53,210 nucleotides of DNA, taken from a virus. The stretch lies in IMG/VR virus record IMGVR_UViG_3300034061_003829, positions 1 to 53,210 of that record; one strand, written 5' to 3'. Positions within the stretch are counted from its first letter, which is position 1; every line of letters begins with the position of its first letter. Under the pieces are notes generated by a model. That model saw only the letters and a list, made by a program, of their open reading frames with translations. It was not told where the DNA came from and ran no database searches. Positions 6,901-49,033 of this stretch are shown piece after piece. A program made the position numbers and the translations under genes.

Positions 6901-7015
6901 TGGAAATACAAATCGTATTTATATGTGTATGATAATATCAGGTGGAAGTCCTGTTTTTATATCATCAGCAACAACATCAGGATGGTGTGTTAAATCAATA
7001 ATTAAGGCAATTTAA
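3974..7015 (+). CDS. Giant tail fibre 1: stalk plus beta-roll adhesin
   Basis: A 1013-residue repetitive virion protein. Residues 1-40 form a likely attachment segment. Residues about 45-215 and 345-495 are stalk repeats of the type NTINNNYSQFTAFTNSFYSY, with an exact 25-residue period in the second block. Between them is a non-repetitive domain. Residues about 505-900 are short beta-roll repeats (IGGGxxNTxSGxxS), like the head repeats of trimeric autotransporters, interrupted by one insert near 620-680. The roll is closed by FVLGSNLIGCSDNTTYVQNL and followed by a C-terminal globular domain. Cysteine often follows the GGG. Probably a trimeric fibre that binds the host; the receptor is unknown. 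Confidence 0.75.
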   Translation: MAYNIKGDLSVLRRIFSRFIRVETLSGNTGNVLAADNNGEIISRNVDFFLTGSTIFNNKVDNSTFYGYTSATNTLIGTKLDTSIYTAFTNSFYTYTSATNTLIGTKLDTSIFANYTANTGSNVSAAFTAFTQTFYQYTSDTNNLINTKLDKTTFTAFTNSFNSYSANTQNTINNNYSEFTAFTNSFNSYSANTQTQLNNKYDKSGGTISGSVTILGNLIVNGTATTINTQNLLVYDPIIGLALVQSGSTNPTLDSGFIIERGVSGNTGFLWIETNKQFELGYTNNTYNDLNVSISNYGNLKLGGLKTNYLYDSLGTTGLTNYILTTTPTGVRWLSGSTNVDISGKLDISVFTAFTDSFYGYTANTQNTINNNYSQFTSFTNSFYSYSSNTQNTINNNYSQFTAFTNSFNSYSANTQNTINNNYSQFTAFTNSFYSYSSNTQNTINNNYSQFTSFTNSFYSYSSNTQNTINNNYSQFTAFTNTFYTYSAQTDSRLLFSSTTTGSTFRINSNNLASAQYSTVSGGRNNISSGDYAFIGGGCANTASGNCSIIGGGDNNKALGSSSTISGGIYNTTTCNNSSIGGGCYNIIDCCNSSVIGGGIGNYIVNNKSSIGGGLMNVIGCTSTYSGYWDTSKINILGDVSTLFNSSDNVGAFNIAENSFKITSVSNSYFNSGVGCTEITLNTSLGGSSNIVLYNKTTSSVSGFYNTIGGGLGNVSYGNYSTIGGGCRNTSSGYYSFIGSGFLNTTLCSQSFIGGGLRNTLSGNSSVIGGGEFNTVLNAYSIISGGQNNTSSGYTSGIGGGNGNVASGQNSFIGGGLSNSTTENANVVSGGMSNTVSGYRSAILGGLSNTVSGCYSVNGAGKNNIVSGCFSAILGGCSNTASGNNTFVLGSNLIGCSDNTTYVQNLKINNGTEALFTTTNKTLTTGLNSLYVLPTVYDGAFIDYVAKCGANYRAGQMMSTWSGGTIVFNETTTVDIGNTNRIYMCMIISGGSPVFISSATTSGWCVKSIIKAI
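5063..5437 (+). repeat. Five 75-bp tandem units encoding fibre stalk
   Basis: Units begin at 5063, 5138, 5213, 5288 and 5363, each starting with the codons for NTQNTINNN and encoding 25 residues. They are highly similar at DNA level, differing mainly in third positions and in a few Phe/Tyr and Ser/Ala choices. Related single units occur near 4475-4560. The array is prone to length change by recombination. Confidence 0.85.
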
Positions 7016-21201: not shown

Positions 21202-22371
21202 ATGAAAAATTTAATCGTAGAAGGAAGAAAACTTAGAGTATATAAATTTGATTGGGATGATAATATTTTAAATCTCCCAACAAAAATTAAAATGTATAAG
21301 AAAAATAAACCTGTTTATGTTTCAACTAGTGAGTTTGCCGAATTAAGAAATAATCCTGAGTATGAAGTTAGAGATGACGCATTTGAGGATTTTAAAGATT
21401 TTGGTGATAGAGGTGATGATGCGTTTATTGAAGATACTAAGACAGCTATCGCTAATAATAAGAAAGCACCTTCTTTTAAGAAGTTTAAAGAAGCTTTAAA
21501 ACACGTAAACTACTTTGCTATCATTACGGCTAGAGGACACGCACCAGAGACGTTAAAAAGGGGTGTAAGGACATTTATTAATTTAGCTCTAACTCCTGAT
21601 GAGAAGATTACATTTAAGAAAAACTTAAAAAAATTATATGGTGATTTACCTTTCAATGATTTAGTTGAAAAGTATTTGGTTAATCAAAAATACTACCCTG
21701 TATCATCACCTGAGTTTCAAAAACAATTTGGTTCTATGTCTGGAGCTGAAAAACCTGAAATTGCTAAACAAATAGCTTCAAGAGATTTTATCAATTATAT
21801 TGAGAATGTGGCTAACAATCTTGACGCTAAAGATATTAGGATTATGAATCCAAAATCAAAAGGTGAATTAGAAATTAGTGTTGGATTTTCAGATGACGAT
21901 AAGAAAAATGTAAAAGCAATGGAGGAGTTTATGAAAGCTCTGAAAAAAGAAAAACCTAATATGACATTTGTTATCTACGATACCTCAAACCCTAAAGATG
22001 TTAAAAAGACAGTTATTGAAGGTTTAATGAAAGAAAGTGATGAATATAATAAGATTAGTGATTATAAAAATATTGCTGATATTCATAGGGAAATTAAAAC
22101 TATAATTGAAGAATCTGGTTTAGTATATGACGATTACGAAGAATCTTTTGTTGAGTATGCTGATTATGAAGAGGGTGGGTATGAAGGATATTATGAAATA
22201 AAAATATCTTTAGATAGTCCAAGATATGCTGGTGATATTACACCTGAGCAATATTTAAGAGTTAAAGAAAAACTTAAAAGATTAGTTGGTGTTGATTATG
22301 TTGATATTAACACAAATAATAGAACAATAACAATCTCAATGATTGATGAATATCCTGATATGTTTATATAA
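21202..22371 (+). CDS. HAD-superfamily phosphohydrolase-like protein
   Basis: A 389-residue protein. Motif I is FDWDDNIL at residues 16-23 (Asp17 nucleophile, Asp19 acid/base); motif II is AIITARGH with Thr109; and VGFSDDDKKNV near residue 225 fits motif IV. The domain therefore has the full metal-dependent HAD set with a large helical cap between motifs I and II. Residues about 285-389 form a second, acidic domain. The N-terminus MKNLIVEGRKL ends in IVE, like the candidate capsid-targeting leaders of the head module. The substrate is unknown. The following gene starts three bases after its stop. Confidence 0.7.
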   Translation: MKNLIVEGRKLRVYKFDWDDNILNLPTKIKMYKKNKPVYVSTSEFAELRNNPEYEVRDDAFEDFKDFGDRGDDAFIEDTKTAIANNKKAPSFKKFKEALKHVNYFAIITARGHAPETLKRGVRTFINLALTPDEKITFKKNLKKLYGDLPFNDLVEKYLVNQKYYPVSSPEFQKQFGSMSGAEKPEIAKQIASRDFINYIENVANNLDAKDIRIMNPKSKGELEISVGFSDDDKKNVKAMEEFMKALKKEKPNMTFVIYDTSNPKDVKKTVIEGLMKESDEYNKISDYKNIADIHREIKTIIEESGLVYDDYEESFVEYADYEEGGYEGYYEIKISLDSPRYAGDITPEQYLRVKEKLKRLVGVDYVDINTNNRTITISMIDEYPDMFI

Positions 22372-34900: not shown

Positions 34901-36876
34901 TTCAAAATATAATTGCGTCAGGTAAACTTAATTTAATATCAGGTAATACATTAAGTTCTACAATTTCTGGTGGGTATTGTAATACAATAATTGGGTCGTA
35001 TTCAACAGTTGCCGGTGGACAAAACAACACTATAACAAGTATTAACTCAGCAGTTAGTGGGGGTTTATGTAATACAATTAGTGGATGTTTATCAGGTATA
35101 GGTAGTGGATGTAGAAATACAATATTATCATCGGGATCAACAATTACTGGAGGTATTTGTAACACAACTTCAGGTGATTGTTCATTAATAGGTGGTGGAT
35201 TTAGAAATACTATATCATCAATTGGTTCAACCATAACAGGTGGTATTTGTAATACAACTTCAGGTGATTGTTCATTAATAGGTGGTGGATTTAGAAATAC
35301 CATTTGTGCTAACTCACCACATACTTTAATAGTTGGTGGTGAAAGAAACGTTATTAGTGGTTGTCATTCAGTAATTGTAGGTGGTAGTGGTAATACAATA
35401 ACTAGTCAAGCTAGATCATTTATTGCTGGTGGTTTTAGAAATACAGCACTTTGTAGTAACACATTTATTTTAGGTAGTAATTTAACAGCAACAACAGTAA
35501 ATACAACTTATGTTGAAAGTTTAAATGTTAAAAACTATGTTTATGATTCTACAAGTAGTTCAGGGACAACAGGTCAAGTTTTAACCACAACTAATTCAGG
35601 TGTTAGATGGAATACATCAGTTGATCCTGTAATTATATTAGGTACAGGAACAGGTTCTTCAGTAAGGAAAGGTAATAATAATACAACATTAGGTAGTTAT
35701 TCAACCGTAAGTGGTGGTCAATACAATACCTCATCAGGTAACACATCAACAATTGCCGGTGGTGGATATAATGTGATTGATGGTTTTGAAAGTTTAATAG
35801 GTGGTGGTGTTGGAAATTATGTGATTAATGATAAATCGTCTGTTGTTGGTGGTTTAATGAATATTGTAGGTGAATCTAAAATATATTCAGCTAATTGGAC
35901 TTTATTTAATACATTATTAACTATTTCAGGTGACGTATCAACTTATTTTAATGTTAATAATGAAGTAAGAGTATTTAATTTCAATGATAACTCATATAAC
36001 ACAACAACGATTTTAGCTTCAGTTTATGATAACCCATCTAATTCAACTCAATTATTATTAAAAGATAGTGTTGGTAGTAATAGTGATACAATATTTTATA
36101 ATAAAACAACATCAATAGAAAATGGTTGTTACAATTTCATTGGTGGTGGTATAGGTAATATATCTTATGGATGTCATTCATCAATAGTGGGTGGTTTTAC
36201 AAATATTACATCAGGTAATACATCAACAATTGCTGGTGGTTGTTATAATACATCGATTGAAAGTTATTCATTTATAGGTGGTGGTGTATGTAATACAGTT
36301 TCTAATACTTATTCAACAATTTTAACTGGTTATAAAAATACAATTACAGGTTGTCATTCAGGTATTATCGCTGGTTCAGGGAATACTATAACAAGTAATA
36401 ATTCAATAATTGGTGGTGGTTGTAAAAATACAATTTATGATTTAAGTGATTATTCAAATATTTTAGGTGGTTATAATAACTACATATCAGGTAGCACATC
36501 TTCTTTAATTATTGGTGGTGGTAATAATACTTTGATTACTACCAATAATTCGTGCCCATCTGAATATTCAAATATTATAGGTGGTCAATGTAATAAAAAT
36601 TATGGCGATTGTACCTCTATACTTGGCGGATCTAATAATACTATTAGTTTTAGAACCCCTGGTTCAGTTATTTTAGGTGGGGCTAATAATACAATACCTG
36701 ATAATATTTCAAGTAGTTTTATATTAGGTAGTAATATAACTGCAAATTGTAGTGACACAACATTCGTAAAATACTTGAATATTGGAGGAATAATAGAAAC
36801 AAACACATGTTCAAGTTTATCGCAAGGAACTCTTTGGAGATGTGTTGGTGATGATGTGGTAAGAATAAAATTATAA
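31960..36876 (+). CDS. Giant tail fibre 4: extended beta-roll
   Basis: The largest protein here, 1638 residues. Residues 1-200 are an N-terminal beta domain (FPTSSTQSGTTVQSL, YYITYNSGTVLSFGSGDSVFDPESG), then a short stalk (TNTKTQIDNK). From about 225 almost everything is beta-roll: over 70 short units of the GGGxxNTxSG type in two blocks separated by a YDSTSSSGTTGQVL adaptor near 1190 and an insert near 1310. Within the first block, superunits of about 203 residues recur. Each block closes with FILGSN-x-TTYV/TTFV. The C-terminus is short (LSQGTLWRCVGDDVVRIKL). Cysteine often follows GGG. There is no S74 domain; how it folds and trimerises is unclear. A hairpin and the glycosyltransferase gene follow. 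Confidence 0.75.
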   Translation: MAISTNEIAQRLFKKLLGKGDTFTNRAFYEEPYNGPLQMFSNNVWTDTSKIPTVFFPTSSTQSGTTVQSLLNDSYVYPDGTTGLTQNNAVVQIKTYNLTLNPGSSGDTQSFAFVNPNAVDVVPSTYGSAYQYYITYNSGTVLSFGSGDSVFDPESGILKFYTNTPSDWSSGDFVIKAAKYIGNKLSAYDLSLINTNSGSTAQLNSFLSGFYSYTSNTKTQIDNKVIEVGSGVGSTIRINNNNEAFSEYSSVLSGTGNTSYGSSSVISGGKENLISGSPSNRFSVIAGGLKNTIFGNSNSGYGSCSVIGGGCGNITCGVVTVIGGGFNNTAYAAGATISGGYRNVSNQTYSFIGSGQNNKITNIAGGCVSVIGGGLLNTISGSTLCNAANFIGSGQGNTLFDSRFSVINGGFNNRLFGFNSTIGGGTINTSYCDNSTIGGGCRNIILGPGGFIGGGLNNIVSGNTSAIAGGICNIVTGNTSAIVGGQQNIITSDFSGILSGRLNRIENSNSTIGGGISNTILSDCSFIGGGNCNTTYAGGATISGGYCNTSDQTNSYIGSGSRNKIVSIGGGCISVIGGGQLNTISGSTLCNIGNFIGSGQGNTLFDSRFSVINGGFNNTLVGCNSTIGGGTNNISYCDNSTIGGGCSNNILGTNGFIGGGINNLISGSTSVIDGGSNNGITGNTSAIVGGQQNTIKSDFSGILSGRLNRVENNHSLIGGGINNTTLGDCSFIGGGCGNNIFNCSHNSIVGGSLNTISGSSFSMIGNGDRNTIATSGGIQNIIASGKLNLISGNTLSSTISGGYKNTIIGSQSTIAGGQNNIVINTNSVVGGGINNTISGTLSGIVGGCDNKTLSSGGFIGGGINNIVSGNTSAIAGGSNNIVTGNTSAIVGGQQNIITSDFSGILSGRLNRVDNNHSLIGGGINNTTLGDCSFIGGGCGNNIFNCCYNSIVVGFRNTISGSSFSMIGNGDRNTIATSPNSVQNIIASGKLNLISGNTLSSTISGGYCNTIIGSYSTVAGGQNNTITSINSAVSGGLCNTISGCLSGIGSGCRNTILSSGSTITGGICNTTSGDCSLIGGGFRNTISSIGSTITGGICNTTSGDCSLIGGGFRNTICANSPHTLIVGGERNVISGCHSVIVGGSGNTITSQARSFIAGGFRNTALCSNTFILGSNLTATTVNTTYVESLNVKNYVYDSTSSSGTTGQVLTTTNSGVRWNTSVDPVIILGTGTGSSVRKGNNNTTLGSYSTVSGGQYNTSSGNTSTIAGGGYNVIDGFESLIGGGVGNYVINDKSSVVGGLMNIVGESKIYSANWTLFNTLLTISGDVSTYFNVNNEVRVFNFNDNSYNTTTILASVYDNPSNSTQLLLKDSVGSNSDTIFYNKTTSIENGCYNFIGGGIGNISYGCHSSIVGGFTNITSGNTSTIAGGCYNTSIESYSFIGGGVCNTVSNTYSTILTGYKNTITGCHSGIIAGSGNTITSNNSIIGGGCKNTIYDLSDYSNILGGYNNYISGSTSSLIIGGGNNTLITTNNSCPSEYSNIIGGQCNKNYGDCTSILGGSNNTISFRTPGSVILGGANNTIPDNISSSFILGSNITANCSDTTFVKYLNIGGIIETNTCSSLSQGTLWRCVGDDVVRIKL
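33055..34900 (+). repeat. Three-fold superrepeat of about 610 bp in fibre 4
   Basis: Segments such as the one starting ATAGGTTCAGGACAAGG occur at 33130 and 33745 (615 bp apart). The GGTAGCTCATTTTC segment occurs at 34231 and 34837 (606 bp apart). TCCGGTAACACATCAGC occurs at 33340 and 34561, 1221 bp apart, which is the sum of the two periods. Long stretches are nearly identical at DNA level, which indicates recent duplication. Confidence 0.8.
35131..35310 (+). repeat. 90-bp tandem duplication in fibre 4
   Basis: Two adjacent 30-residue units share an almost identical 90-bp period; the common core ACAACTTCAGGTGATTG is at 35164 and 35254. This is the most recent-looking duplication in the fibre genes. 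Confidence 0.8.
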
Positions 36877-36927: not shown

Positions 36928-37794
36928 TTATTTCACATAGAAGGTGGGTTGGGTAAACACGTTGCCGCCACCGCAGTTGCAAAATGTATAAAAAACAATC
37001 ACCCTGATAGGGAGCTTCTTGTTGTATGTGCATACCCTGAAGTATTCTTAAATCTTAATTTTGTTCATAAAGTATTTAGGTTAGGTAACACACCATACTT
37101 TTATCAAGATTATATTAAAGACAAAGATACTTTAATATTTAAACACGAACCTTACTTCACAGAAGATCACATTGGTAAAAAATTATCTCTTACTGAGAAT
37201 TGGTGTAAATTGTATAAATTAGATTACTTAGGTGAAACACCTGAATTAGTATTTAATGTTAGACAAACACAATGGGGTTTTAGAAAATGGCAAAGACAAA
37301 GACCCGTTATGGTTATTCAAACAAACGGAGGTCCATTAAATCAAGAAATGCCTTATTCTTGGACAAGGGATATTCCTTATCCTGTAGCACAAGCTTTAGT
37401 TGATTATTACGCTAAAGATTATCATATTATACAAGTTTGTAGACACGAAGAAAATAAATTATCTGGTTGTGAACACGTAATGGAATCAATGTCAAATATG
37501 GAATTATTCTCATTATTATTATCATCACAAAAAAGAATACTTATTGATAGTTGTTTACAACACGCAGCGTCAGCTTTAGGATTAAAATCAACCGTATTAT
37601 GGATTGGGACATCACCTAAATTATTTGGTTATGATTCACACGATAATATTGTAGCACAAATAAATGACAACATTAAATTACCTGATAGTTATTTATTTGA
37701 TTTTAGTTTTAATGGGGTATTACATGAATGTCCTTTAATGGATTTTAACATTTTCGATATGGATTCAATAATTTATTCAGTAAGCACACAATAA
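36913..37794 (+). CDS. GT-B glycosyltransferase, heptosyltransferase-like
   Basis: A 293-residue protein with the two-Rossmann layout of GT9-like enzymes. EGGLGKHVAATAVAKCIK (residues 10-27) is the acceptor-side glycine loop, and KRILIDSCLQHAASALGLKSTVLWIGTSP near 210-240 is the donor-side region. It lacks the four-Cys finger of the enzyme at 1469-2380. The donor sugar and acceptor are unknown. It lies directly after giant fibre 4 and its stop overlaps the start of the sulfotransferase (TAATG). A common acceptor for both enzymes is a reasonable inference. Translation may be controlled by the hairpin around its start codon. Confidence 0.75.
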   Translation: MKNYALFHIEGGLGKHVAATAVAKCIKNNHPDRELLVVCAYPEVFLNLNFVHKVFRLGNTPYFYQDYIKDKDTLIFKHEPYFTEDHIGKKLSLTENWCKLYKLDYLGETPELVFNVRQTQWGFRKWQRQRPVMVIQTNGGPLNQEMPYSWTRDIPYPVAQALVDYYAKDYHIIQVCRHEENKLSGCEHVMESMSNMELFSLLLSSQKRILIDSCLQHAASALGLKSTVLWIGTSPKLFGYDSHDNIVAQINDNIKLPDSYLFDFSFNGVLHECPLMDFNIFDMDSIIYSVSTQ

Positions 37795-38612
37795 TGGTAG
37801 AAAAAATATTCTTTCAGAGTTCGTTACCTAGAAGTGGTTCAACTCTATTACAAAACATAATGGGACAAAATCCAGACTTTTACGTCACACCAACATCAGG
37901 TGTATTAGAATTAGTATATGCAGCAAGAGCTAATTACACATCATCACCTGAGTTTAAAGCACAGGATTCTGAATTAATGAAGGAAGGATTCACAGCTTTT
38001 TGTAAGAATGGTATTGAGGGTTACTTTAACGCAATTACAGATAAAAAATACGCAATGGATAAATCAAGGGGTTGGGGTATTCATTATGGATTTCTTAATT
38101 CATTTTATCCTGAACCAAAAATTATCTGTATGATAAGAGACCCAAGAGCAATATACGCTTCAATGGAAAAAAACTTTAGAAAAAATCAACATTTAGATTC
38201 AGGTATTGTAGATCACGCACAAATGCAAGGTACGACAACTGAAAAAAGGATTGATATATGGACACAAGGACAACCAGTGGGTTTAGCATTAGAAAGATTA
38301 TATCAGGTATTAAGAGAAGGTATTGGACAAAAAATGTTGTTTGTTAAATTTGAAGATTTGTGTAGACAACCTGAAATTGAAATGCAAAGAATATATAAGT
38401 ATTTAGAAGTTCCTTATTTTCAACACGATTTCAATAATATTGAACAGATAACACAGGAAGATGATGCTGTATATGGTATATATGGTGATCACGTAATTAA
38501 ACCTAAATTAGAACCCGTTAAAAATGATTATAAAGAAGTATTAGGTGTAAATGCGGCTAATTGGATTAGAAATAATTTTAAATGGTTTTATGATGAGTTT
38601 AAATATATTTAA
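37794..38612 (+). CDS. PAPS-dependent sulfotransferase
   Basis: A 272-residue protein. SSLPRSGSTLLQ at residues 9-20 is the 5'-phosphosulfate-binding loop, and RDPRAIYASM at 115-124 is the 3'-phosphate-binding motif; together they define the sulfotransferase family that moves sulfate from PAPS to hydroxyl groups. The later part includes KFEDLCRQPEIEMQRIYKYLEV, also typical. Acceptors in this group are sugars, peptides or lipids and cannot be read from the sequence. It overlaps the glycosyltransferase by one base, and the phage also carries an APS kinase at 11256-11711 able to make PAPS. A strong terminator follows at once. Confidence 0.85.
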   Translation: MVEKIFFQSSLPRSGSTLLQNIMGQNPDFYVTPTSGVLELVYAARANYTSSPEFKAQDSELMKEGFTAFCKNGIEGYFNAITDKKYAMDKSRGWGIHYGFLNSFYPEPKIICMIRDPRAIYASMEKNFRKNQHLDSGIVDHAQMQGTTTEKRIDIWTQGQPVGLALERLYQVLREGIGQKMLFVKFEDLCRQPEIEMQRIYKYLEVPYFQHDFNNIEQITQEDDAVYGIYGDHVIKPKLEPVKNDYKEVLGVNAANWIRNNFKWFYDEFKYI

Positions 38613-40542: not shown

Positions 40543-41058
40543 ATGAATATTATTAAAAAATCCGATTTAATGGAGTTTGTTTCAGAAAAGAAACAAATGT
40601 TATTGGGTAGAAAAATGGAAGCATCTGCTGAACCAGCTGTTGCTCCACCAAAGACAAAGCCTGGTACTAAACCAGCACCATCAACACCTAAATACCCAAA
40701 ACCTGCGGTAACTCCAAAACCAAAGGCTATGGTTGAACCGGCTGTTGCCCCGCCAAAGACAAAGCCTGGTACTAAACCAGCACCATCAACACCTAAATAC
40801 CCAAAACCTGCGGTAACTCCAAAACCAAAGGCAGTGTTAAAAGGGTTAGATGAAGAAATGAAAGTATCTAAAAAAGTGAAACTTAACAAAAAATACCCAA
40901 AAAAATTTGTTAAAGAACATATTAATTCGTATTTTAGCGTAAACATTGTGAGTGAAACAATTAATGAGGATTATTCAGTTGAATTGCATTTGGTTGGTAA
41001 CAAATCAGAATTGGTTAAATGTTTAAAAAACCTTAAAGAAGGTAACGTAATAAACTAA
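40543..41058 (+). CDS. Pro/Lys-rich repeat protein, candidate internal head protein
   Basis: A 171-residue protein. Residues 1-15 (MNIIKKSDLMEFVSE) form a short amphipathic helix ending in VSE, similar to other leaders in this region. Residues about 30-99 are two 35-residue copies of a Pro/Lys-rich unit (EPAVAPPKTKPGTKPAPS and PKYPKPAVTPKPKA), strongly basic and probably extended. Residues about 105-171 form a basic alpha/beta domain (VKLNKKYPKKFVKEHINSYF). The basic composition would suit DNA binding inside the head. No family is recognised. Confidence 0.55.
   Translation: MNIIKKSDLMEFVSEKKQMLLGRKMEASAEPAVAPPKTKPGTKPAPSTPKYPKPAVTPKPKAMVEPAVAPPKTKPGTKPAPSTPKYPKPAVTPKPKAVLKGLDEEMKVSKKVKLNKKYPKKFVKEHINSYFSVNIVSETINEDYSVELHLVGNKSELVKCLKNLKEGNVIN
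40630..40839 (+). repeat. Two 105-bp tandem repeats
   Basis: Copies at 40630-40734 and 40735-40839 differ at only a few bases and encode a 35-residue Pro/Lys-rich unit twice. The high DNA identity indicates recent duplication. Confidence 0.9.
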
Positions 41059-41076
41059 TATCATTCAATATGTCAA

Positions 41077-42408
41077 ATGAGTAACAAAATATTTAAGAAA
41101 AAAGAAGTTTTAAAATTAATAAAAGAAGATATGATTCCATACGGAGATGACCCAAACAGAATTGAGCGTTCAATTGAGCGTAGAATAACTAATAGACAAA
41201 ATCCATTAGGTGCTAACCCAGCCTTCCCTGAAGGCACTCCTGAAAGTAATTTTGAGGAAATAATGGCATCTGAACAGTTTAAAAACTCTATTGAGAAAAT
41301 CAAAACATACGCTGGTAGAAAAAATATTCGCGTTGTAGATGGTAGAGGTGTAATTCAACCAATGGCTTTGGTTCAATTACAAATGGAGTTAGTTCGTGAT
41401 ATGGTTAATAAAGAAAGAAACCATAAACCACAATTAGAAAAATTAGCTATTAAATTATTAAAACAAGATTTTAATATCCCTGGACAATTACAATCTAAAA
41501 TAGAAAATGGTAGAACTATTTATTACGATGGATCATTACAGTATGACGTATCTTTAACATTACCTGTTGATTTGAGTGATGCTCAAACTGAGATGCAAAT
41601 GCAAATGCAACAAGAACCTGAAGAGGTTATTGAGAATATTGAAGAGTTGGATTTAGAAGTAGCTAAAAGAAGATTCTTAAATGCAATGATGGCAGGTGCA
41701 GCCTTCAAAGGACAATATATGTTCCATATGGCAGAAGATGAAATTAATTTTATCGATGAAGATTTAATTACGGAATATGGTTTATTAATGGCTATTACGG
41801 AATGGGCTTACTTTATGATTCCACCTGAACATGCGGCAGCCGCTGCAGCTTCAGGGGAACAAGCGGGTGGTTCTGAAAGAGTTGATTTTACAACCGAACC
41901 CCCTACATTAATTTGTAGGGCTAGATCATTCCCATTACTTTGTCACGAAATTGTTAAATCTTTTATGGAATTTATGTCAGCTTGGGGATTACCTCAAGGT
42001 GGGGAAGAAAGTGAAGTAAAAAAAGCTCAACATATTCTTAATAAAGCAGATTTTTTAGAAGCTGAAAATTGGGATTTAATGTTAGGACCTGGATTTTGGG
42101 CTAGATTTTTAGACGCTATCGATGAAAATGAAATAGATATTAAGTCTAATTTATATACGAAAATAGTTCAAATGCCAGTAAAAGAATTTAATTCATTTAT
42201 GAAAGAAGTTTTAAAGAAATCACCAAGAGGTAAACAAATGATGGTTGATTTGGCTAACGAAATTAAAGATGCTATCAGTAAGGAAGAATATAATACAGCG
42301 ATGATTCCATATAGTGAACCTGAAGAAGAACCTAATAATGAACCTAATAATGAACCTGATGAAGATATAGATGTTGATGATATAGATATATCTGACTTAT
42401 TTAAATAA
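41077..42408 (+). CDS. Large head-module protein with leader-like N-terminus
   Basis: A 443-residue, mainly helical, acidic protein. The first 18 residues, MSNKIFKKKEVLKLIKED, form a basic amphipathic helix ending in IKE, like several neighbours. The middle has a Met/Gln-rich stretch (QTEMQMQMQQEPEE) and conserved-looking helices (AKRRFLNAMMAGAAFKGQYMFHMAEDEINFID, PLLCHEIVKSFMEFMSAWG). The C-terminus repeats NNEP and ends in a very acidic tail (DEDIDVDDIDISDLFK). The position before the protease suggests a core or head-associated protein. I cannot assign it to a named family. Confidence 0.6.
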   Translation: MSNKIFKKKEVLKLIKEDMIPYGDDPNRIERSIERRITNRQNPLGANPAFPEGTPESNFEEIMASEQFKNSIEKIKTYAGRKNIRVVDGRGVIQPMALVQLQMELVRDMVNKERNHKPQLEKLAIKLLKQDFNIPGQLQSKIENGRTIYYDGSLQYDVSLTLPVDLSDAQTEMQMQMQQEPEEVIENIEELDLEVAKRRFLNAMMAGAAFKGQYMFHMAEDEINFIDEDLITEYGLLMAITEWAYFMIPPEHAAAAAASGEQAGGSERVDFTTEPPTLICRARSFPLLCHEIVKSFMEFMSAWGLPQGGEESEVKKAQHILNKADFLEAENWDLMLGPGFWARFLDAIDENEIDIKSNLYTKIVQMPVKEFNSFMKEVLKKSPRGKQMMVDLANEIKDAISKEEYNTAMIPYSEPEEEPNNEPNNEPDEDIDVDDIDISDLFK

Positions 42409-42410
42409 TA

Positions 42411-42437
42411 AAAAAACCCCTTAATTGGGGTTTTTTT
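42411..42437 (+). terminator. Terminator after 41077-42408 gene
   Basis: AAAACCCC-ttaatt-GGGGTTTT with a T-run. A-runs on the left arm also allow use from the other strand, so it may serve the convergent minus-strand gene as well. Confidence 0.85.
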
Positions 42438-42472
42438 ATTTTATAGGTGAGTTGATTCACCCATTAATCTAA

Positions 42473-42904
42473 TTATTTTTTATTAGGATAACATTCAATT
42501 TCGTTATTCTCAGTAAATATTTTAAGTAATTCTTCACATTTATTTTTAACGAATAGGACAATCTCATCCCTGAATGGATCTTGTGGTTCGTGGTAGAATA
42601 GAACCGTATCAACTGACATAAAGCTTTTTTTATCTTTAACCATACCTGAAGATCTTAAATCCAAATCAACAATCCATTTTCTATCGTTGAAAATTGAATT
42701 TTTAAGGCTGTCAGCCAATAAGTGTTTGTAGTTTTTAGTTAATTTTTTTATTAGGTTTTCATAATCTTCATAATCTTCATTTGGTTTTATCCAAGTGGAC
42801 ATTTGTAGATATATTGAAATGGGGTTCTTAATGTTCACAGTTCCGTAGCTAATCTTAAATCGCTCATCTAATGGCAAATTTAACTTTTTACCTGTTTTAA
42901 TCAT
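42473..42904 (-). CDS. Phage protein of unknown function, 143 aa
   Basis: A lone minus-strand gene within the head module. The protein is alpha/beta with segments ISIYLQMSTWIKPNEDYEDY, ADSLKNSIFNDRKWIVDLDLR and FRDEIVLFVKNKCEELLKIF. It has two cysteines, no membrane segment and no catalytic motif. It is convergent with the preceding gene and divergent from the prohead protease gene. The WIVDLDLRSSG core looks like a central strand of a folded domain. It is not recognised. Confidence 0.6.
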   Translation of the reverse strand: MIKTGKKLNLPLDERFKISYGTVNIKNPISIYLQMSTWIKPNEDYEDYENLIKKLTKNYKHLLADSLKNSIFNDRKWIVDLDLRSSGMVKDKKSFMSVDTVLFYHEPQDPFRDEIVLFVKNKCEELLKIFTENNEIECYPNKK

Positions 42905-42989
42905 TTGTTTTTTCTATGTGTTTTTTAGTTTATTATCTGATAAAACAATAAGTATTTTGTGTCATAATAACAAATTTTATTTTAGCTTA

Positions 42990-42997
42990 TATTTATA
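42990..42997 (+). promoter_or_regulatory. Late-type promoter box (protease), 3 nt before ATG
   Basis: Perfect TATTTATA with three bases before the prohead protease ATG at 43001. Confidence 0.6.
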
Positions 42998-43000
42998 TGT

Positions 43001-43702
43001 ATGACAAAATATATTGATTACTCTAAATTGAGAGTTCTTAAAGAGAATGAAGAAGGTTATGGTATTATAATTGACAATACCGGTTATATTGATCCTAAGA
43101 TTGAACGTAATTCTAGACTAGTAGAATCATATTCACTTGAACAAGATAAAGATATTATTTTATACGCTATTCTTCAAAAATACGATACTGAAAATAAAAA
43201 TGGTAGAATATACCCTGAGAAGGTATTAAAAGCTAATGTAGAAAAGTATCAAAAAGTTATTGATCAACATAGAGCAATATCAGAATTAAATCACCCAGAA
43301 ACATCAATTATTGACTTAGAAAGAGTTTCACACGAGATATTGGAAACTTGGTGGGAAGGAAAAGAATTATGGGGTAAATTGAAGATTCTTACTTCACCTG
43401 GATTTAAGAAATATGGTTATGTTGGTAATTACGCACCTGACATCGCAGCAAATCTTTTATTACACGGAATTACAATCGGTATTTCATCAAGAGGTATTGG
43501 TTCATTGAAAAAAGAAGGTAATAAAAATATTGTTCAATCGGATTTTGAGTTAATCTGTTTTGACTTGGTTTCACAACCATCAACACCAGGAGCTTATTTA
43601 TTTACTGATCAATCATTAAGTAAAGTTTATACAGAGAACATTAATAGAAATACAGTAATTTCTGAAGATGTAATAAAATCAATCGATAATTTCTTAATCT
43701 AA
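43001..43702 (+). CDS. Prohead core protease, T4 gp21-like (peptidase S80)
   Basis: A 233-residue serine protease of the T4 prohead family. The fold is marked by YAILQKYDTENKNGRIYPEKVL, ELNHPE with catalytic His98, GISSRGIGS with the serine pair 162-163, and CFDLVSQPSTPGA with Asp188. It should process scaffold, capsid and internal proteins, cutting after I/L-x-E. It is placed just upstream of scaffold and capsid genes as in T4, though four small genes and one other intervene before the scaffold. Its stop overlaps the next start. The LVSQPSTPGAYL block is nearly invariant in the family. Confidence 0.92.
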   Translation: MTKYIDYSKLRVLKENEEGYGIIIDNTGYIDPKIERNSRLVESYSLEQDKDIILYAILQKYDTENKNGRIYPEKVLKANVEKYQKVIDQHRAISELNHPETSIIDLERVSHEILETWWEGKELWGKLKILTSPGFKKYGYVGNYAPDIAANLLLHGITIGISSRGIGSLKKEGNKNIVQSDFELICFDLVSQPSTPGAYLFTDQSLSKVYTENINRNTVISEDVIKSIDNFLI

Positions 43703-43851
43703 TGGCAAAGGCAACAAAAGGTGGATCATCAGGAGCAAAAGTAAAATTAAACTCTAAAAAGAGTGGTAATGGTGTTCACGCTAAAGCAAAAACATCTAGC
43801 AATAAAAACTCAAAAAATTATAAAAAGCCATATGGCGGACAAGGTAGATAA
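43702..43851 (+). CDS. Small basic Lys/Ser/Gly-rich protein, 49 aa
   Basis: Begins MAKATKGGSSGAKVKL and ends YKKPYGGQGR. It has about twelve lysines and almost no acidic residues, so it is probably unfolded and nucleic-acid binding, perhaps packaged inside the head. The start codon overlaps the protease stop (TAATG), and the next gene starts one base after its stop. No family is recognised. Confidence 0.6.
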   Translation: MAKATKGGSSGAKVKLNSKKSGNGVHAKAKTSSNKNSKNYKKPYGGQGR

Positions 43852-43852
43852 T

Positions 43853-44371
43853 ATGAAAAAGATTAAATTAACAGAAGCGGATTTAACAAGAATAATCCAA
43901 AGAATCATTAAAGAAGATGATTCAGAGATGTACACAAATTATATGTTCTTCTCTAATTTAGAACAAATAAAACGTCAATGTGAGAAACTATTATCATTGG
44001 ATAAAAGTATGATTGATAATATCATCCAAAATAGACATGATTGGGCAGATGATCATATATCAGAAGCTAAAAACAATGTGGATCAAGTATTCGATTTCTT
44101 TATGGGTAAAGTAAACGAAGATTCGATGGAGATGAGTGAATGGATTATGAGAGTCCCAACCGATGAAAGTGAAGAAATGAATGAAAAGTGGGCTGGAAAA
44201 TCTGTGGTTAAAAAGACAGGTGAATATTCAGATAAAACAATTGCAGAATTAAAATCTGAATTAAAGAAGTTAAAAAATAATCCAGAAAAGACAGAAGCTT
44301 TAAAGAAAAAAGAAAGACAATTAATATTTGCTATCAGAGCAAAAGGTGGATGGAAGAAAGGAAAAATGTAA
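43853..44371 (+). CDS. Leader-bearing head-module protein, 172 aa
   Basis: Begins MKKIKLTEADLTRIIQ and continues RIIKEDDSEM; the N-terminal helix ends in IKE. I chose this start rather than an upstream in-frame ATG because the upstream part overlaps the 49-residue gene and because the leader motif begins exactly here. The body is helical and charged (SNLEQIKRQCEKLLSLDK, DQVFDFFMGKVNEDSMEM). The C-terminus is a basic coiled-coil-like segment (TIAELKSELKKLKNNPEKTEALKKKERQ) with GGWKKGKM at the end, a motif seen in small phage head proteins. A capsid-internal role is inferred. Confidence 0.6.
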   Translation: MKKIKLTEADLTRIIQRIIKEDDSEMYTNYMFFSNLEQIKRQCEKLLSLDKSMIDNIIQNRHDWADDHISEAKNNVDQVFDFFMGKVNEDSMEMSEWIMRVPTDESEEMNEKWAGKSVVKKTGEYSDKTIAELKSELKKLKNNPEKTEALKKKERQLIFAIRAKGGWKKGKM

Positions 44372-44372
44372 T

Positions 44373-44717
44373 ATGAAAATCATTATCACAGAAGAACAAC
44401 TTAAAAAAATCAAATCTACTGACTTTGAAGAATTTGCATCTAAAAGGTTTGGTGGGGCTGAAAAGATAGCTAATAACGCTAAAGAAAAAGGTGGGTCATC
44501 TATGTTGACATATCACCATTTTATAGTTAAATTACCATACTATAAAAAAGCATCTGAAGGTAAGTTTGATTTAGAAAAATCTAAATCTGAATTAAAAGAG
44601 CATATGGATAGAGTGTGTGGTTTAAGTGAGGATGTGAATATCGGACAAGTAGATTTCCAAAGGCTTTTAGGTAAAATAGAAGTATTAGGTGAATTAATTA
44701 TTAAACATAAAAAATAA
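44373..44717 (+). CDS. Leader-bearing head-module protein, 114 aa
   Basis: Begins MKIIITEEQLKKIKSTDF, a short amphipathic N-terminus like its neighbours with ITE at residues 5-7. The body (KRFGGAEKIANNAKEKGGSSMLTYHHFIVKLPYY, KSELKEHMDRVCGL, LLGKIEVLGELIIKHKK) is helical. It starts one base after the previous stop, and its own stop overlaps the next start (TAATG). I chose this ATG over an upstream in-frame one inside the previous gene for the same reason. No family is recognised. Confidence 0.6.
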   Translation: MKIIITEEQLKKIKSTDFEEFASKRFGGAEKIANNAKEKGGSSMLTYHHFIVKLPYYKKASEGKFDLEKSKSELKEHMDRVCGLSEDVNIGQVDFQRLLGKIEVLGELIIKHKK

Positions 44718-44896
44718 TGAAAACTATTTTATTAACGGAAGATGAGTTAATTTACTTAATTGAGAAATGGACAAAGAAATATAAAAAATCTATTAATTGT
44801 TCAAATCCAAAAGGTTTCTCTCAAAAAGCACATTGTGCAGCAAGGAAGAAAAGACAACATCATCAACCTACTAAATCTAAATCACCTTTTAAATAA
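44717..44896 (+). CDS. Leader-bearing small basic protein, 59 aa
   Basis: Begins MKTILLTEDELIYLIEKW, again a helix ending in LIE, followed by a basic body with the segment NCSNPKGFSQKAHCAARKKR. The Cys-x11-Cys arrangement with Asn-Pro-Lys-Gly-Phe recurs in phage head-region proteins that I have seen, but I cannot name the family. It ends in a Lys/Ser/Pro tail just before a terminator. It is the last gene of the protease operon. Confidence 0.6.
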   Translation: MKTILLTEDELIYLIEKWTKKYKKSINCSNPKGFSQKAHCAARKKRQHHQPTKSKSPFK

Positions 44897-44903
44897 AAAA
44901 TTA

Positions 44904-44933
44904 AAACTCAGACTTTCCAATCTGAGTTTTTTT
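44904..44933 (+). terminator. Terminator of the protease operon
   Basis: AAACTCAGA-ctttccaa-TCTGAGTTT with a T-run. The T-run merges into the next late-type box (44933-44940). Confidence 0.85.
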
Positions 44934-44940
44934 ATTTATA
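44933..44940 (+). promoter_or_regulatory. Late-type promoter box
   Basis: Perfect TATTTATA directly after the terminator T-run, 22 nt before the ATG at 44963. Confidence 0.5.
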
Positions 44941-44962
44941 GTTAAGTATAATTTAAAACAAT

Positions 44963-45196
44963 ATGGAAGAAAGAGATTTTTATTACTTTAAGTGTGTTAC
45001 CACTATGTCAATACCTGATGAGAATTCGGGTAAAATCAAAAAGAAAAACGAAGAGTTTATCGTAAAGGCTGTAAGTCCTACCGATGTAGAAGCTCAAATG
45101 GTTCAATTTATGAATGGAACAGTTTATGATTGGAGTATTACAAGTGTAACAAAAACTAAAATCGAATCACTTATCCAAGATGGAAAAGCGATTTAA
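44963..45196 (+). CDS. DUF4494-like protein, 77 aa
   Basis: The sequence (DFYYFKCVTTMSIPDENSGKIKKKNEEFIVKAVSPTDVEAQ and DWSITSVTKTKIESLI) follows the short beta-alpha-beta pattern of DUF4494, a family known from Bacteroidota and their phages. The match is by eye. It has one cysteine and no membrane segment. It is a single-gene transcription unit between two terminators, just upstream of the scaffold gene. Function unknown. Confidence 0.55.
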   Translation: MEERDFYYFKCVTTMSIPDENSGKIKKKNEEFIVKAVSPTDVEAQMVQFMNGTVYDWSITSVTKTKIESLIQDGKAI

Positions 45197-45202
45197 CCCT
45201 TA

Positions 45203-45227
45203 AAACCCCTTAATTGGGGTTTTTTTA
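45203..45227 (+). terminator. First of two tandem terminators
   Basis: AAAACCCC-ttaatt-GGGGTTTT with a T-run, the same stem-loop as at 42411. Confidence 0.8.
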
Positions 45228-45238
45228 TGTCCTTATAA

Positions 45239-45267
45239 TAACCCTCACAAAATGGGGGTTTTTTTGT
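45239..45267 (+). terminator. Second of two tandem terminators
   Basis: AACCCTC-acaaaat-GGGGGTT followed by TTTTT; the stem has an internal mismatch. Together with the preceding hairpin it isolates the scaffold and capsid unit. Confidence 0.65.
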
Positions 45268-45317
45268 GCTTTATAAAAAATATTTATGACAAAACTACAT
45301 TTTACCAAAAAACCCCC

Positions 45318-45325
45318 TATTTATA
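45318..45325 (+). promoter_or_regulatory. Late-type promoter box (scaffold and capsid)
   Basis: Perfect CTATTTATA context, 29 nt before the scaffold ATG. A weaker TATTTATG copy is at 45281-45288. The capsid gene has no box of its own, so it probably depends on this one. Confidence 0.6.
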
Positions 45326-45354
45326 GTGTATAAATAAATTTTTATTTAAGACAC

Positions 45355-46659
45355 ATGAAAAAAACAAATTCAATTATTGAAGAAGCTCTAATCGAAGCAA
45401 GTCAATTAGAGGAAGCAGTTAAAGAAGTAGGAAAGGAAGTTCTAGCTACGGCTATGAAGCAAGAGATCGATGAGATCATTAAAAGTTCATTAACTGAAGA
45501 AGAAGAGGAAGAATCACCTGAAATGGATTCTATGGGTATGGAAGCACCTGAAATGCCAGAAGCTCCTGAATCAACCGAAGTACCTGAAATGCCAGAAATG
45601 GAAGATGGTGAAGAAGATGAAGAAGTTATGGATATGACAAACGCATCTGACGCTGAAGTTATCAAAGTATTTAAAGCTATGGGTCCAGAGGATTCAATCG
45701 AAGTTACTAAAACAGAAGATGGAATACATTTAAAAGATGGGGATAATGAATATATCCTACAAATGGAAGGTGTGGAAGAAATGACTGATGAAGAACTTGA
45801 TGAGTATTTGGATGAAGCTACATTTGAAGATTTCGATGAATTAGATATCGAAGATGAAGATGAGGACGAAGATGACGATGAAGAAGAGTACGAAGAAGAT
45901 GAAGATGTCGAAGATGATGATTTAGAATTTGAAGGTTGGATGAATGAATTAATGGATGAAGATTCTATGTCAGAATATATGAGTTCTGAAAGTCCTGATA
46001 ATGAAGATATGAGTGAAGAGTACGGTGAAGTAGTTTACGAAATCGAACTTGACGAAGCATCTGAAGTTATGGATGAAGATATGGACGAAGCTGAAGAGGA
46101 TGAAGATTTAGAAGAAGCTGCAAGAACATATGGTAATGGTTCTAGAGATGGTAGTAGAGGTCTTAGAAAGGCAAGAACACCTAATAGATATTATTCATAT
46201 AGAAATGGTTTCGATGTTAAAGTTGAATCTGAAAACAGAGAGTTAAAAAACCAAATTAAATTAATCGAATCTGAATTAAAAGGATATAAAGCAAAAAATA
46301 ATGAATATAAATCAGCTTTAGGTTCTTTAAAAGAAAAGATGAATGAAATGGCAGTTTACTATACAAATCTTTCATACACTAACAAATTGTTCACAGAACA
46401 CACAACAACTAAAAAAGAAAAATTAGACATTCTTAGAAAGTTTGACAACGTAAAAAGTGTGAATGAGTCTAAAAATTTATTTAAAATGCTTTCTGAAGAT
46501 TTATCAAGCAAGAAAACAATTTCTAACTTGAATTCATTATCAGAAAACGTGGAGAAAACATTAACAAGTAGTTCATCAAAATTGACTGAATCAGTTGTTT
46601 ATGAAGATCCAAAAATCAAACAAATTAAAGATTTAATGTCAAAGTTAAATAGAAAATAA
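45355..46659 (+). CDS. Prohead core scaffold protein, T4 gp22-like
   Basis: A 434-residue scaffold. Residues about 1-265 are extremely acidic (runs of Asp and Glu around EEEESPEMDSMGMEAPEMPE and DEDEDEDDDEEEYEEDE). Residues about 275-434 are a basic to neutral coiled-coil region (SENRELKNQIKLIESELKGY, ALGSLKEKMNEMAVYYTNLSY, IKDLMSKLNRK). The C-terminal layout, with FVKVESENR-type helices and a final helix, matches gp22-like core proteins. The N-terminus MKKTNSIIEEALIEASQLEE has candidate I/L-x-E sites. The major capsid gene follows after 35 bases of A-rich sequence. The acidic half is longer than in T4. Confidence 0.85.
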   Translation: MKKTNSIIEEALIEASQLEEAVKEVGKEVLATAMKQEIDEIIKSSLTEEEEEESPEMDSMGMEAPEMPEAPESTEVPEMPEMEDGEEDEEVMDMTNASDAEVIKVFKAMGPEDSIEVTKTEDGIHLKDGDNEYILQMEGVEEMTDEELDEYLDEATFEDFDELDIEDEDEDEDDDEEEYEEDEDVEDDDLEFEGWMNELMDEDSMSEYMSSESPDNEDMSEEYGEVVYEIELDEASEVMDEDMDEAEEDEDLEEAARTYGNGSRDGSRGLRKARTPNRYYSYRNGFDVKVESENRELKNQIKLIESELKGYKAKNNEYKSALGSLKEKMNEMAVYYTNLSYTNKLFTEHTTTKKEKLDILRKFDNVKSVNESKNLFKMLSEDLSSKKTISNLNSLSENVEKTLTSSSSKLTESVVYEDPKIKQIKDLMSKLNRK

Positions 46660-46694
46660 AACAATAAAATAAAACAAATAAACAAATAACAACT

Positions 46695-48545
46695 ATGAGT
46701 AGTTTTTTATTAAAATCTGGTGAAGTAGGAAACATCGGATTAAAACAAATGAAACTTGTAAGAGAGCAAACTATTGAAAAATGGGATAGAATGGGCTTTC
46801 TTGAAGGTTTAGAAGGTCACACTAAAGACAATGTGGCTCAATTATTCGAGAACCAAGCTTCTTTCTTAATCAATGAAGCAACTGCAACAGATTCAGCAGG
46901 TTCTTTCGAAACAGTAGTATTCCCTATCATCAGAAGGGTATTCTCAAAATTATTAGCTAACGAAATCGTTTCAGTTCAAGCTTTGAACATGCCGATTGGT
47001 AGAATTTTCTACTTCGTTCCTAAAATTTCTCAGAGAACTCAAGTAGGTAATGTATGGCAACATTCAAATCCTTTTGGATATCCAAATACTGATACTAACA
47101 ACACACAATTCCAATCAACAAACTTGTATGATGCATACTATGATTCAACTTCAGGTTTAGACAACAACCAATTGTTTGACAGATCTAAAGGTGCTTACCA
47201 AGAATTCACAACAAACCCATTAACAATGGTTACTTTAACTACATTGTCAGGTGGAACATCAGTATTTACTAACGTTGCTACTGTAAACCAAACAGGTTGT
47301 ACAAGATATGTAACTTTTGAAGTATCTGGTTTCACTTCAGGTGGTGCTGGTAAAATCATCGGTCCAAATGGTAATGAAATGGATTCAGAAGAATTCTTAG
47401 CTTCATTCCAAATGTTAAATAACACTAACTTATTCTGTTGTACAGGTTCAACAGGTGGTGTTGGTTCAGGTAAAGGTACAACTATATCATACGCAGCTAA
47501 TTCACCAATGGAATTTAGAGTTGTAACTCAAAAGTACTCTAGACAAATCGTTGATTACTGGGCTCAAGTTCAAGGTAATTTAGGTGGACAAACAGTTCAA
47601 TCTTCAGCGCAAGATTTGTGTACTCCAACAGGTAAAATGTATGTTGAAGTAGATTTAAGTTGTCCAGCTTGTATCACTTGTGATTCAGTAGATGGTTATG
47701 TAGGTTCATATTTACCAGGTGGTGTTAATAACGAAGCTTTCTCAACATTCACCGCTAAATGGAGACAATATAGAGATTTAGAATTTGAATCAGCTTTAGG
47801 TGAAGTTTCATTCGAATTAGACTCAGTAACAATCTCTGTAACAGAAAGAAAATTAAGAGCACAATGGTCTCCTGAAATGGCTCAAGACGTAAGTGCATTC
47901 CATAACATCGACGCAGAAGCTGAATTAACAGCTATCTTGTCTGAAGAAATCGCAGCAGAAATCGATAGAGAAATCTTGAGAGATTTGAGAAAAGCAGCAG
48001 CTTGGAGATTAAGATGGGATTGGAACGGTTGGAAACGTGCAGCATCAGGTGGTGGTTTCAACGCTTACACTCAAAAAGACTGGAACCAAACATTGATTAC
48101 TACAATCAATCAGATTTCAGCTCAAATCTTCAAATCAACTTTAAGAGGTGGTGCTAACTGGATCGTATGTTCAGCTGAAGTTTCAGCAATCTTCGATGAT
48201 TTACAATACTTCCACGTTTCAAACGCTAACCCTGAAGAAGATCAATACAATATGGGTATTGAAAAAATTGGTACACTTCAAGGAAGATACAAAGTGTATA
48301 GAGATCCATACTTCCCAGCTAACAAAGTGTTAATCGGACACAAAGGTTCATCTATGTTAGATACTGGTTATGTATATGCTCCATACGTACCACTTCAATT
48401 GACTCCAACTATGTATAACCCATTCACTTTCGCACCTATTAAAGGTATCATGACTAGATACGCAACTAAGGTGTTGAACAATAGGTTCTATGGTGTTATC
48501 ACAGTAGATGGTATCAGAACTTTCAACGTAGCAGAATTAAGATAA
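46695..48545 (+). CDS. Major capsid protein, T4 gp23-like
   Basis: A 616-residue HK97-fold capsid protein of the T4 type. Diagnostic blocks are LFENQASFLINEA, SFETVVFPIIRRVFSKLLANEIVSVQALNMPIGRIFYF, LRAQWSPEMAQDVSAFHNIDAEAELTAILSEEIAAEIDREILRDL, ANWIVCSAEVSAIFDDL and YRDPYFPANKVLIGHKG. It is longer than T4 gp23 (521 residues), mainly through an insert around 130-340. T4 gp23 loses its N-terminal 65 residues; here an equivalent cut would be after Glu61 in LINE-ATA. Codon use is richer in C-ending codons (AAC, TTC, TAC) than in neighbouring fibres, as expected for a very highly expressed gene. Confidence 0.95.
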   Translation: MSSFLLKSGEVGNIGLKQMKLVREQTIEKWDRMGFLEGLEGHTKDNVAQLFENQASFLINEATATDSAGSFETVVFPIIRRVFSKLLANEIVSVQALNMPIGRIFYFVPKISQRTQVGNVWQHSNPFGYPNTDTNNTQFQSTNLYDAYYDSTSGLDNNQLFDRSKGAYQEFTTNPLTMVTLTTLSGGTSVFTNVATVNQTGCTRYVTFEVSGFTSGGAGKIIGPNGNEMDSEEFLASFQMLNNTNLFCCTGSTGGVGSGKGTTISYAANSPMEFRVVTQKYSRQIVDYWAQVQGNLGGQTVQSSAQDLCTPTGKMYVEVDLSCPACITCDSVDGYVGSYLPGGVNNEAFSTFTAKWRQYRDLEFESALGEVSFELDSVTISVTERKLRAQWSPEMAQDVSAFHNIDAEAELTAILSEEIAAEIDREILRDLRKAAAWRLRWDWNGWKRAASGGGFNAYTQKDWNQTLITTINQISAQIFKSTLRGGANWIVCSAEVSAIFDDLQYFHVSNANPEEDQYNMGIEKIGTLQGRYKVYRDPYFPANKVLIGHKGSSMLDTGYVYAPYVPLQLTPTMYNPFTFAPIKGIMTRYATKVLNNRFYGVITVDGIRTFNVAELR

Positions 48546-48567
48546 TCTTAATTGTTAAACTAAATAT

Positions 48568-48598
48568 AAAAGGTGGATTTAAGTCCACCTTTTTTTTT
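48568..48598 (+). terminator. Terminator after major capsid gene
   Basis: AAAAGGTGGA-tttaag-TCCACCTTTT with a long T-run. Confidence 0.9.
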
Positions 48599-48607
48599 GC
48601 TATTAAC

Positions 48608-48615
48608 TATTTATA
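48608..48615 (+). promoter_or_regulatory. Late-type promoter box, 4 nt before ATG
   Basis: Perfect ACTATTTATA context with four bases before the ATG at 48620. Confidence 0.6.
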
Positions 48616-48619
48616 ACAT

Positions 48620-49033
48620 ATGAACAAACTGCGTAAAATTATTAAAGAACAATTATTATTAGAAAAAAAAATTGCAGTACTTACCTCTAAAATAGAGGTA
48701 GCTTTTAAATTTGAGGTTGATAGAAGCACACACGCATATCTAAGAAGTAAAAGAACGGATATACCTAATTACGATGAAAGAGAAATATCAAACTCAGAAA
48801 TAAAGTATGTTATTGAGTTATCTATGCGTAAAATAGCGGAATCAATTATGTTAGGTGAAATAAAAGATGGGGTTCCATTTGTTATTAAATCAATACAAAA
48901 AGAAATAGCAATTGCTATAGACCCTACACTTATAGGTGGAACTTATTGGAAATTATTTGTTCTTACAGTATTTAGAGAATCTGAAGAATTACCTTTCAGG
49001 GTTAGTAAAGATCAGATTGTCATATGGATATAA
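48620..49033 (+). CDS. Leader-bearing head-module protein, 137 aa
   Basis: Begins MNKLRKIIKEQLLLEKK, a basic amphipathic helix with IKE and LLE, similar to other leaders here. The body is an alpha/beta domain (KYVIELSMRKIAESIMLGE, GVPFVIKSIQKEIAIAIDPTLIGG, YWKLFVLTVFRESEELPF) and ends in QIVIWI. No cysteine, no membrane segment. The body looks like a single folded domain rather than a disordered core protein. It is expressed right after the capsid gene from its own box. No family is recognised. Confidence 0.6.
   Translation: MNKLRKIIKEQLLLEKKIAVLTSKIEVAFKFEVDRSTHAYLRSKRTDIPNYDEREISNSEIKYVIELSMRKIAESIMLGEIKDGVPFVIKSIQKEIAIAIDPTLIGGTYWKLFVLTVFRESEELPFRVSKDQIVIWI

Follow-up and report, generated by a model that had tools for sequence, protein, structure and literature searches.

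In phage T4, the cut motif of the prohead protease gp21 is L/I-X-E, and the capsid-targeting sequences (CTSs) are 10–19 residues long (PMC9026906). The internal proteins of the T-even phages are diverse and have the CTS alone in common (PMC3012670). In giant phages of the phiKZ/SPN3US type, a gp21-related prohead protease removes the propeptides of head proteins after x-x-E (PMC5694885, PMC7411985). Read directly, the T4 leaders are MKTYQEFIAE↓A in ipII and ipIII, and MKTFKEF...STITE↓A in ipI (↓ marks a cut site, here and below). N-terminal amphipathic helices also direct cargo into the protein shell of bacterial microcompartments, where they are known as encapsulation peptides (e.g. that of EutC).

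We analyzed a 53,210-base virus record with a T4-like head module (the window, i.e. the whole stretch of DNA under study). An earlier note had proposed that unrelated proteins of this module start with leaders ending in I/L/V-x-E, serving as capsid-targeting signals cut by a gp21-like protease. Of the explanations considered, this one gives the best fit to the comparative data, although several of its single assignments fail.

The head module and its prohead protease

The gp21-like protease proposed at 43001 was borne out by matches to Peptidase_S77 (PF03420, 4.7e-21), phrog_207 (2.6e-43) and the T4 prohead protease (PDB 5jbl, 1.9e-12), with which it aligns over 54–206. Both catalytic regions are kept (His in ELNHPE and Ser in GISSRG); at the position of this Ser, Ala is found in the deposited T4 chain, which is presumably an active-site mutant. 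The major capsid protein gp23 has a predicted cut site of its own after E61 (FLINE↓A, 46877/46878). At this position, the window and its relatives have LINE↓A/S/T, MLNE↓S and similar sequences, with [IL]-x-E in 20 of the 22 variants listed and V-x-E in the other two. The nearest gp23 relatives in annotated phage records, about 42% identical, were from uncultured huge phages, Microcystis phage Mel-JY01 and Flavobacterium phage immuto, and a Bacteroidota host is plausible for the window phage. A further candidate site, LIE↓A in the acidic scaffold-like protein encoded at 45355 in the head module, failed on homologues and was rejected. The coordinates of the features are given in Table 1.

Also in the head module, the gene at 42473–42904 lies on the minus strand, and similar-looking ORFs in L009 (6429) and L012 (8637) are found on the plus strand, upstream of gp21; judged by eye, this orientation suggests a local inversion. 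Very long fibre-like proteins with IGGGxxNTxSG repeats, YadA head-like by eye, are encoded at 3974–7015, 7070–11236, 27559–31947 and 31960–36876, and a sulfotransferase gene (37794–38612; PF13469, 4.2e-21) adjoins the fibre genes.

Table 1. Leaders, candidate cut sites and associated proteins in the window
Feature	Position	Strand	Evidence or remark
MKNLIVE start	21202..21222	+	Weak candidate
N-terminus MNIIKKSDLMEFVSE from the earlier note	40543..40587	+	Site unconserved
Leader MSNKIFKKKEVLKLIKE, predicted cut after E17	41077..41127	+	Leader exchange, separate helix
41077 body, conserved head-module protein	41128..42408	+	pLDDT mostly >80, residues 31–408
gp21-like prohead protease (Peptidase S77), predicted cutter	43001..43702	+	PF03420, phrog_207, PDB 5jbl
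Canonical leader MKKIKLTEADLTRIIQRIIKE, predicted cut after E21	43853..43915	+	LTExxL
43853 body, YMFFSNLEQIKRQCE domain, predicted mature cargo	43916..44371	+	Conserved body, exchanged leaders
Leader variant MKIIITEEQLKKIK, without distal I/L-x-E	44373..44414	+	Kept in five relatives
Short leader MKTILLTEDELIYLIE, candidate cut after E16	44717..44764	+	Kept in L002, L005, L006
Major capsid protein gp23	46695..48545	+	PF07068, 1.1e-74
Leader MNKLRKIIKEQLLLE, candidate site LLE↓K after E15	48620..48664	+	Conserved

N-terminal leaders in the window

All the ORFs and peptides listed in the earlier note were found where it had placed them, the starts of 43853 and 44373 being internal ATGs within longer mechanical ORFs. 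The motif on which the note relied was loose: 16 of the 51 window genes had [IL]xE within residues 4–22, where shuffling gave about 10, so the bare motif proves little, and we discarded its count as a test on account of this background. The concentration of the motif in the head module nevertheless stood (10/14 genes vs 6/37 elsewhere, Fisher p = 0.0003). A more specific leader, M-x(0-7)-[LI]TE-x-x-L (hereafter LTExxL), starts the adjacent genes 43853, 44373 and 44717 (3 observed vs 0.0 shuffled).

The strong cases among the listed sites were 43853 and 41077. The leader of 43853 is predicted to be helical over residues 8–22 (AlphaFold model of modest confidence, pTM 0.33), and the P1 Glu of its site (RIIKE↓D) is invariant in the 24 leader-bearing homologues, with I/L, once V, at P3. 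For the YMFFSNLEQIKRQCE body, no family was matched in Pfam or PHROGs. Most relatives have the canonical tag in front of this body, others have MKNLNNIIKKVLKE, MKNLNTLIKKVLRE or MSSIIINEKQLEKLVSKLKTNINE, and the leaders of the family end at the same junction (RIIKE, KKVLKE, KTNINE). In a 642-kb huge phage (LR756502; L018, ~10001–10207), the body is found without the tag, fused to a Lys-rich N-terminal region, KKWIKDAIEHPGSLRRSLKKKKGEKIT.

The AlphaFold model of 41077 consists of an isolated low-confidence helix (residues 8–18) followed by a well-folded body, for which the fold search gave no PDB match at E ≤ 0.001 and one uncharacterised phage protein only. Upstream of this body, the window has KKEVLKLIKE↓D, L085 has the canonical RVIKRIVKE↓A, and KRLVSRINE↓A, KKLKTKINE↓A and LLSLYKQNLQE↓M occur in G002 (L420), G006 (L376) and L261, respectively; the leaders again end at one junction (KLIKE, RIVKE, SRINE, NLQE). 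The site (LIKE↓D) is kept in close relatives and is backed by this leader swapping. As a conserved head-module gene, 41077 may, like some other members, encode a core component rather than cargo.

Three further assignments are plausible, two of them in altered form. The site at 44717 (YLIE↓K) is conserved in the close relatives retaining the gene. At 44373, the IITE that had been read as terminal corresponds to the LTE of the leader motif, with no distal [IL]xE, and the leader is a plausible variant; ITExQL, as found here, also starts other viral proteins. At 48620, homologues keep the Glu of LLE↓K (E15) and not that of the proposed IIKE (E10), the site reading LLLE↓KK in the window, LLLE↓KR in L131 and LLIE↓KK in L081. 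The case for 21202 (LIVE↓G) is weak: its homologues in L082 and L053 have tag-like leaders and that in L086 has none; the protein contains an FDWDDN motif and is HAD-like by eye. The assignment at 40543 (VSE↓K) did not hold, its P1 Glu being replaced with D and N in the close relatives L007 and L008. In T4, Asp at the P1 position stops processing but not targeting (PMC9026906).

A leader common to unrelated viral proteins

A search with the degenerate pattern LTEx[DE]Lxx-hydrophobic-[IV]x[KR]-hydrophobic-hydrophobic-[KR]E gave at least 120 matches in viral contigs, on very different proteins, and nearly all of the viral matches listed lay 3–8 residues past an ATG. In 257 Gb of cellular genomes, the same pattern gave 6 matches, one of which looked like a genuine tag (L144, a 39-kb MAG contig). 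In a bacterial MAG (L141:4845–5747, minus strand), the microcompartment cargo protein EutC (PF05985) starts with MLTEKELREIVESVIKE, and its N-terminus matches the tag pattern. In L081, L089, L100 and L130, an LTExxL...IxE module was found 16–45 residues past the nearest ATG, inside a longer frame with an uncertain start codon.

The second scan fixed residues 1–12 only, leaving the distal end unbiased, and yielded 146 non-redundant, unrelated bodies, with a virus-wide tag consensus of roughly MKKIIRLTESDLxRIVKRV-I/L-x-E. Information content was high through residue 22 and then fell, after the Glu, from 3.3 to 1.2 and to ~0.2 bits per column (n = 146). Column 20 was I/L in 127 sequences and V in 16, and column 22 was E in 135, such that residues 20–22 read [ILV]xE in 134/146 and [IL]xE in 127. 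Nine of the 11 bodies without Glu at position 22 have four extra residues and [IL]xE at 24–26; the putative cut motif is thus kept at the end of the predicted helix despite a one-turn change in helix length. Leaders are 14–22 residues long, or 26 with the extra turn. In an alignment of 140 tagged proteins, the leader was fully conserved, with a mean column identity of 5% outside it. The tag codons vary synonymously, and it is therefore the peptide, rather than the nucleic acid, that is under selection; this variation also led us to reject a signal in the DNA or RNA at gene starts.

A tblastn search of 50,697 phage records with the 23-residue consensus tag returned no match, but the query may have been too short or masked, so this negative result carries no weight. 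Flavobacterium phage immuto, the closest isolate examined, has no LTESDL tags. A full-text literature search for descriptions of the tag, or of a CTS in metagenomic T4-like phages, found none, but its coverage was incomplete and does not establish priority.

Tagged contigs and their putative cargo

S77 was detected in 29/50 tagged contigs and 7/50 random viral contigs. The corresponding values were 18/22 vs 5/10 for contigs of at least 100 kb (p = 0.10) and 29/48 vs 7/26 for those of at least 30 kb (p = 0.008), and we regard this enrichment as supporting evidence only, since within this last set neither size class reaches significance by itself; S77 is, in any case, often present in large phages. 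The tagged contigs are mostly T4-like. The largest one without S77 (G007, 233 kb) encodes a T4-like sheath and tube but gave no terminase, portal, gp21 or gp23 match and is, for this reason, most likely a partial genome. A T4-like sheath was also found in seven further tagged contigs with no protease match, vs one control without S77. Searching with phrog_207 did not rescue the contigs lacking S77, and phrog_2, which we took to be the large terminase, was rejected as a contig classifier because it was too insensitive.

A distal [ILV]xE was present in 10/19 LTExxL-type leaders in G006 (320 kb read), 8/13 in G002 and 9/18 in G024, corresponding to about 10 complete tags in a large genome. The control contigs G058 and G091 had one and no LTExxL-type leader, respectively, and immuto had none; for G006, the 19 observed compare with 0.04 expected. 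Part of the per-genome counts is accounted for by the MKYLITESQLDRVIFRYLD family of small proteins, which start with ITESxL and mostly lack the distal cut motif; these paralogues are present in several copies per genome in G024, G002 and G006 (L424, L422 and L372). Tagged genes often form islands away from the head genes, as in G002, in which they lie at 129–156 kb and gp21 at 99 kb.

Very few of the 140 non-redundant tagged proteins had any match in Pfam, PHROGs or NCBIfam. Those in Pfam were to peptidoglycan-binding (4), LysM (2) and esterase-like hydrolase families; PHROGs added endolysin-like and tape-measure-like matches, and the PADLOC matches were single and weak. The tagged bodies are not generally basic (median pI 5.8), unlike the T4 internal proteins.

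Proposed function and alternative explanations

We consider it likely that the leader is a T4-like capsid-targeting signal, removed by the gp21-like protease, because it is N-terminal and virus-specific, occurs on unrelated bodies, stops abruptly at [ILV]-x-E, is swapped between homologues at that point and is found in a T4-like S77 context. The basic amphipathic N-terminal helix would bind the scaffold core during prohead assembly, bringing the tagged protein inside the head, where the S77 protease of the phage would cut after the terminal (I/L/V)-x-E and release the mature body within the capsid. We infer core binding, cleavage, virion residence and ejection into the host from the T4 precedent (PMC9026906, PMC5694885, PMC3012670). 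One detail speaks against T4-like cutting: the residue after the tag Glu is mostly Q/E/S/N/D, whereas it is A/S/T at the capsid site of these phages and A in the T4 CTSs. The tag also contains an inner L-T-E, a second possible cut site.

The leader could instead be an uncleaved tag docking many proteins onto a shared phage or host partner in the infected cell, with no relation to packaging. Such a role would suit a basic amphipathic helix carried by many small proteins whose genes cluster in islands, often a long way from the head genes, but the arrest of conservation at (I/L/V)-x-E would then be unexplained, as would the four-residue insertion that keeps the end motif one turn later and the unrelated leaders on homologous bodies that have only this motif in common; we judge this explanation unlikely. 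Rather less probable still is a leader that targets the prohead but stays on the protein, or whose cut falls at the inner L-T-E and not at the distal I/L-x-E. The inner triplet fits L/I-x-E, does not vary among the scanned sequences (the pattern itself required it) and is the sole site at 44373; nevertheless, conservation ends sharply at the distal Glu, and leaders such as MKNLNNIIKKVLKE are entirely without LTE.

The possibility that short amphipathic N-termini with I/L-x-E are simply frequent, and were picked out by the earlier reader, gains from the background of the bare motif described above and accounts for 40543, and perhaps 21202, the sites of which are unconserved. It fails for the LTExxL leaders, given their excess over expectation in the window and in G006, and for the virus-wide consensus. 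Chance is thus already refuted for the LTExxL set and stands for 40543; as a general explanation, we find it very improbable.

Under the capsid-targeting reading, it is quite possible, but we suggest it tentatively, that a single modular address-and-cut tag, of an origin separate from that of the T4 CTS, marks a large unrelated pool of proteins (peptidoglycan-binding proteins, a hydrolase and many small family-less proteins) as injected head cargo in a major uncultured T4-like lineage. If the capsid-targeting reading is right, virion cargo could be predicted from sequence alone by the tag. A testable prediction (packaged, trimmed and probably ejected) would then exist for a large amount of viral dark matter, and the tag could be used to look for proteins of host takeover or counter-defence that enter together with the genome. 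The tag would, in addition, be a second capsid-targeting peptide unrelated to the first, and the separation of targeting from cleavage known in T4 would become testable across the lineage.

Comparison with known targeting signals

Microcompartment encapsulation peptides resemble the tag in being N-terminal helices, and one EutC fits the tag pattern, but they are cellular and have no associated prohead protease; the resemblance of EutC to the phage tag is probably convergent. The propeptides of phiKZ/SPN3US-type phages are also N-terminal, cut at x-x-E and carried by ejected proteins. However, they are mostly longer than 100 residues, with A-x-E in SPN3US, and do not constitute a short tag across many unrelated proteins.

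The T4 CTSs (IPI, IPII, IPIII and Alt) are the closest counterparts, since they are N-terminal, 10–20 residues long, end in L/I-x-E and are shared by unrelated proteins of phages that encode an S77 prohead protease. The tag is not a new principle, because the T-even internal proteins are likewise diverse and share only the CTS; on our best reading, it is a capsid-targeting leader that is new in sequence and scale. It differs from the T4 CTS in its number per large genome and in having Q/E/S/N/D, not A, after the Glu, and the two sequences (LTESDLxRIVKRVIxE vs MKTYQEFIAE) have only the end motif in common. Likeness to the T4 CTS sequence is not a defining feature, however, as the T4 CTSs differ among themselves.
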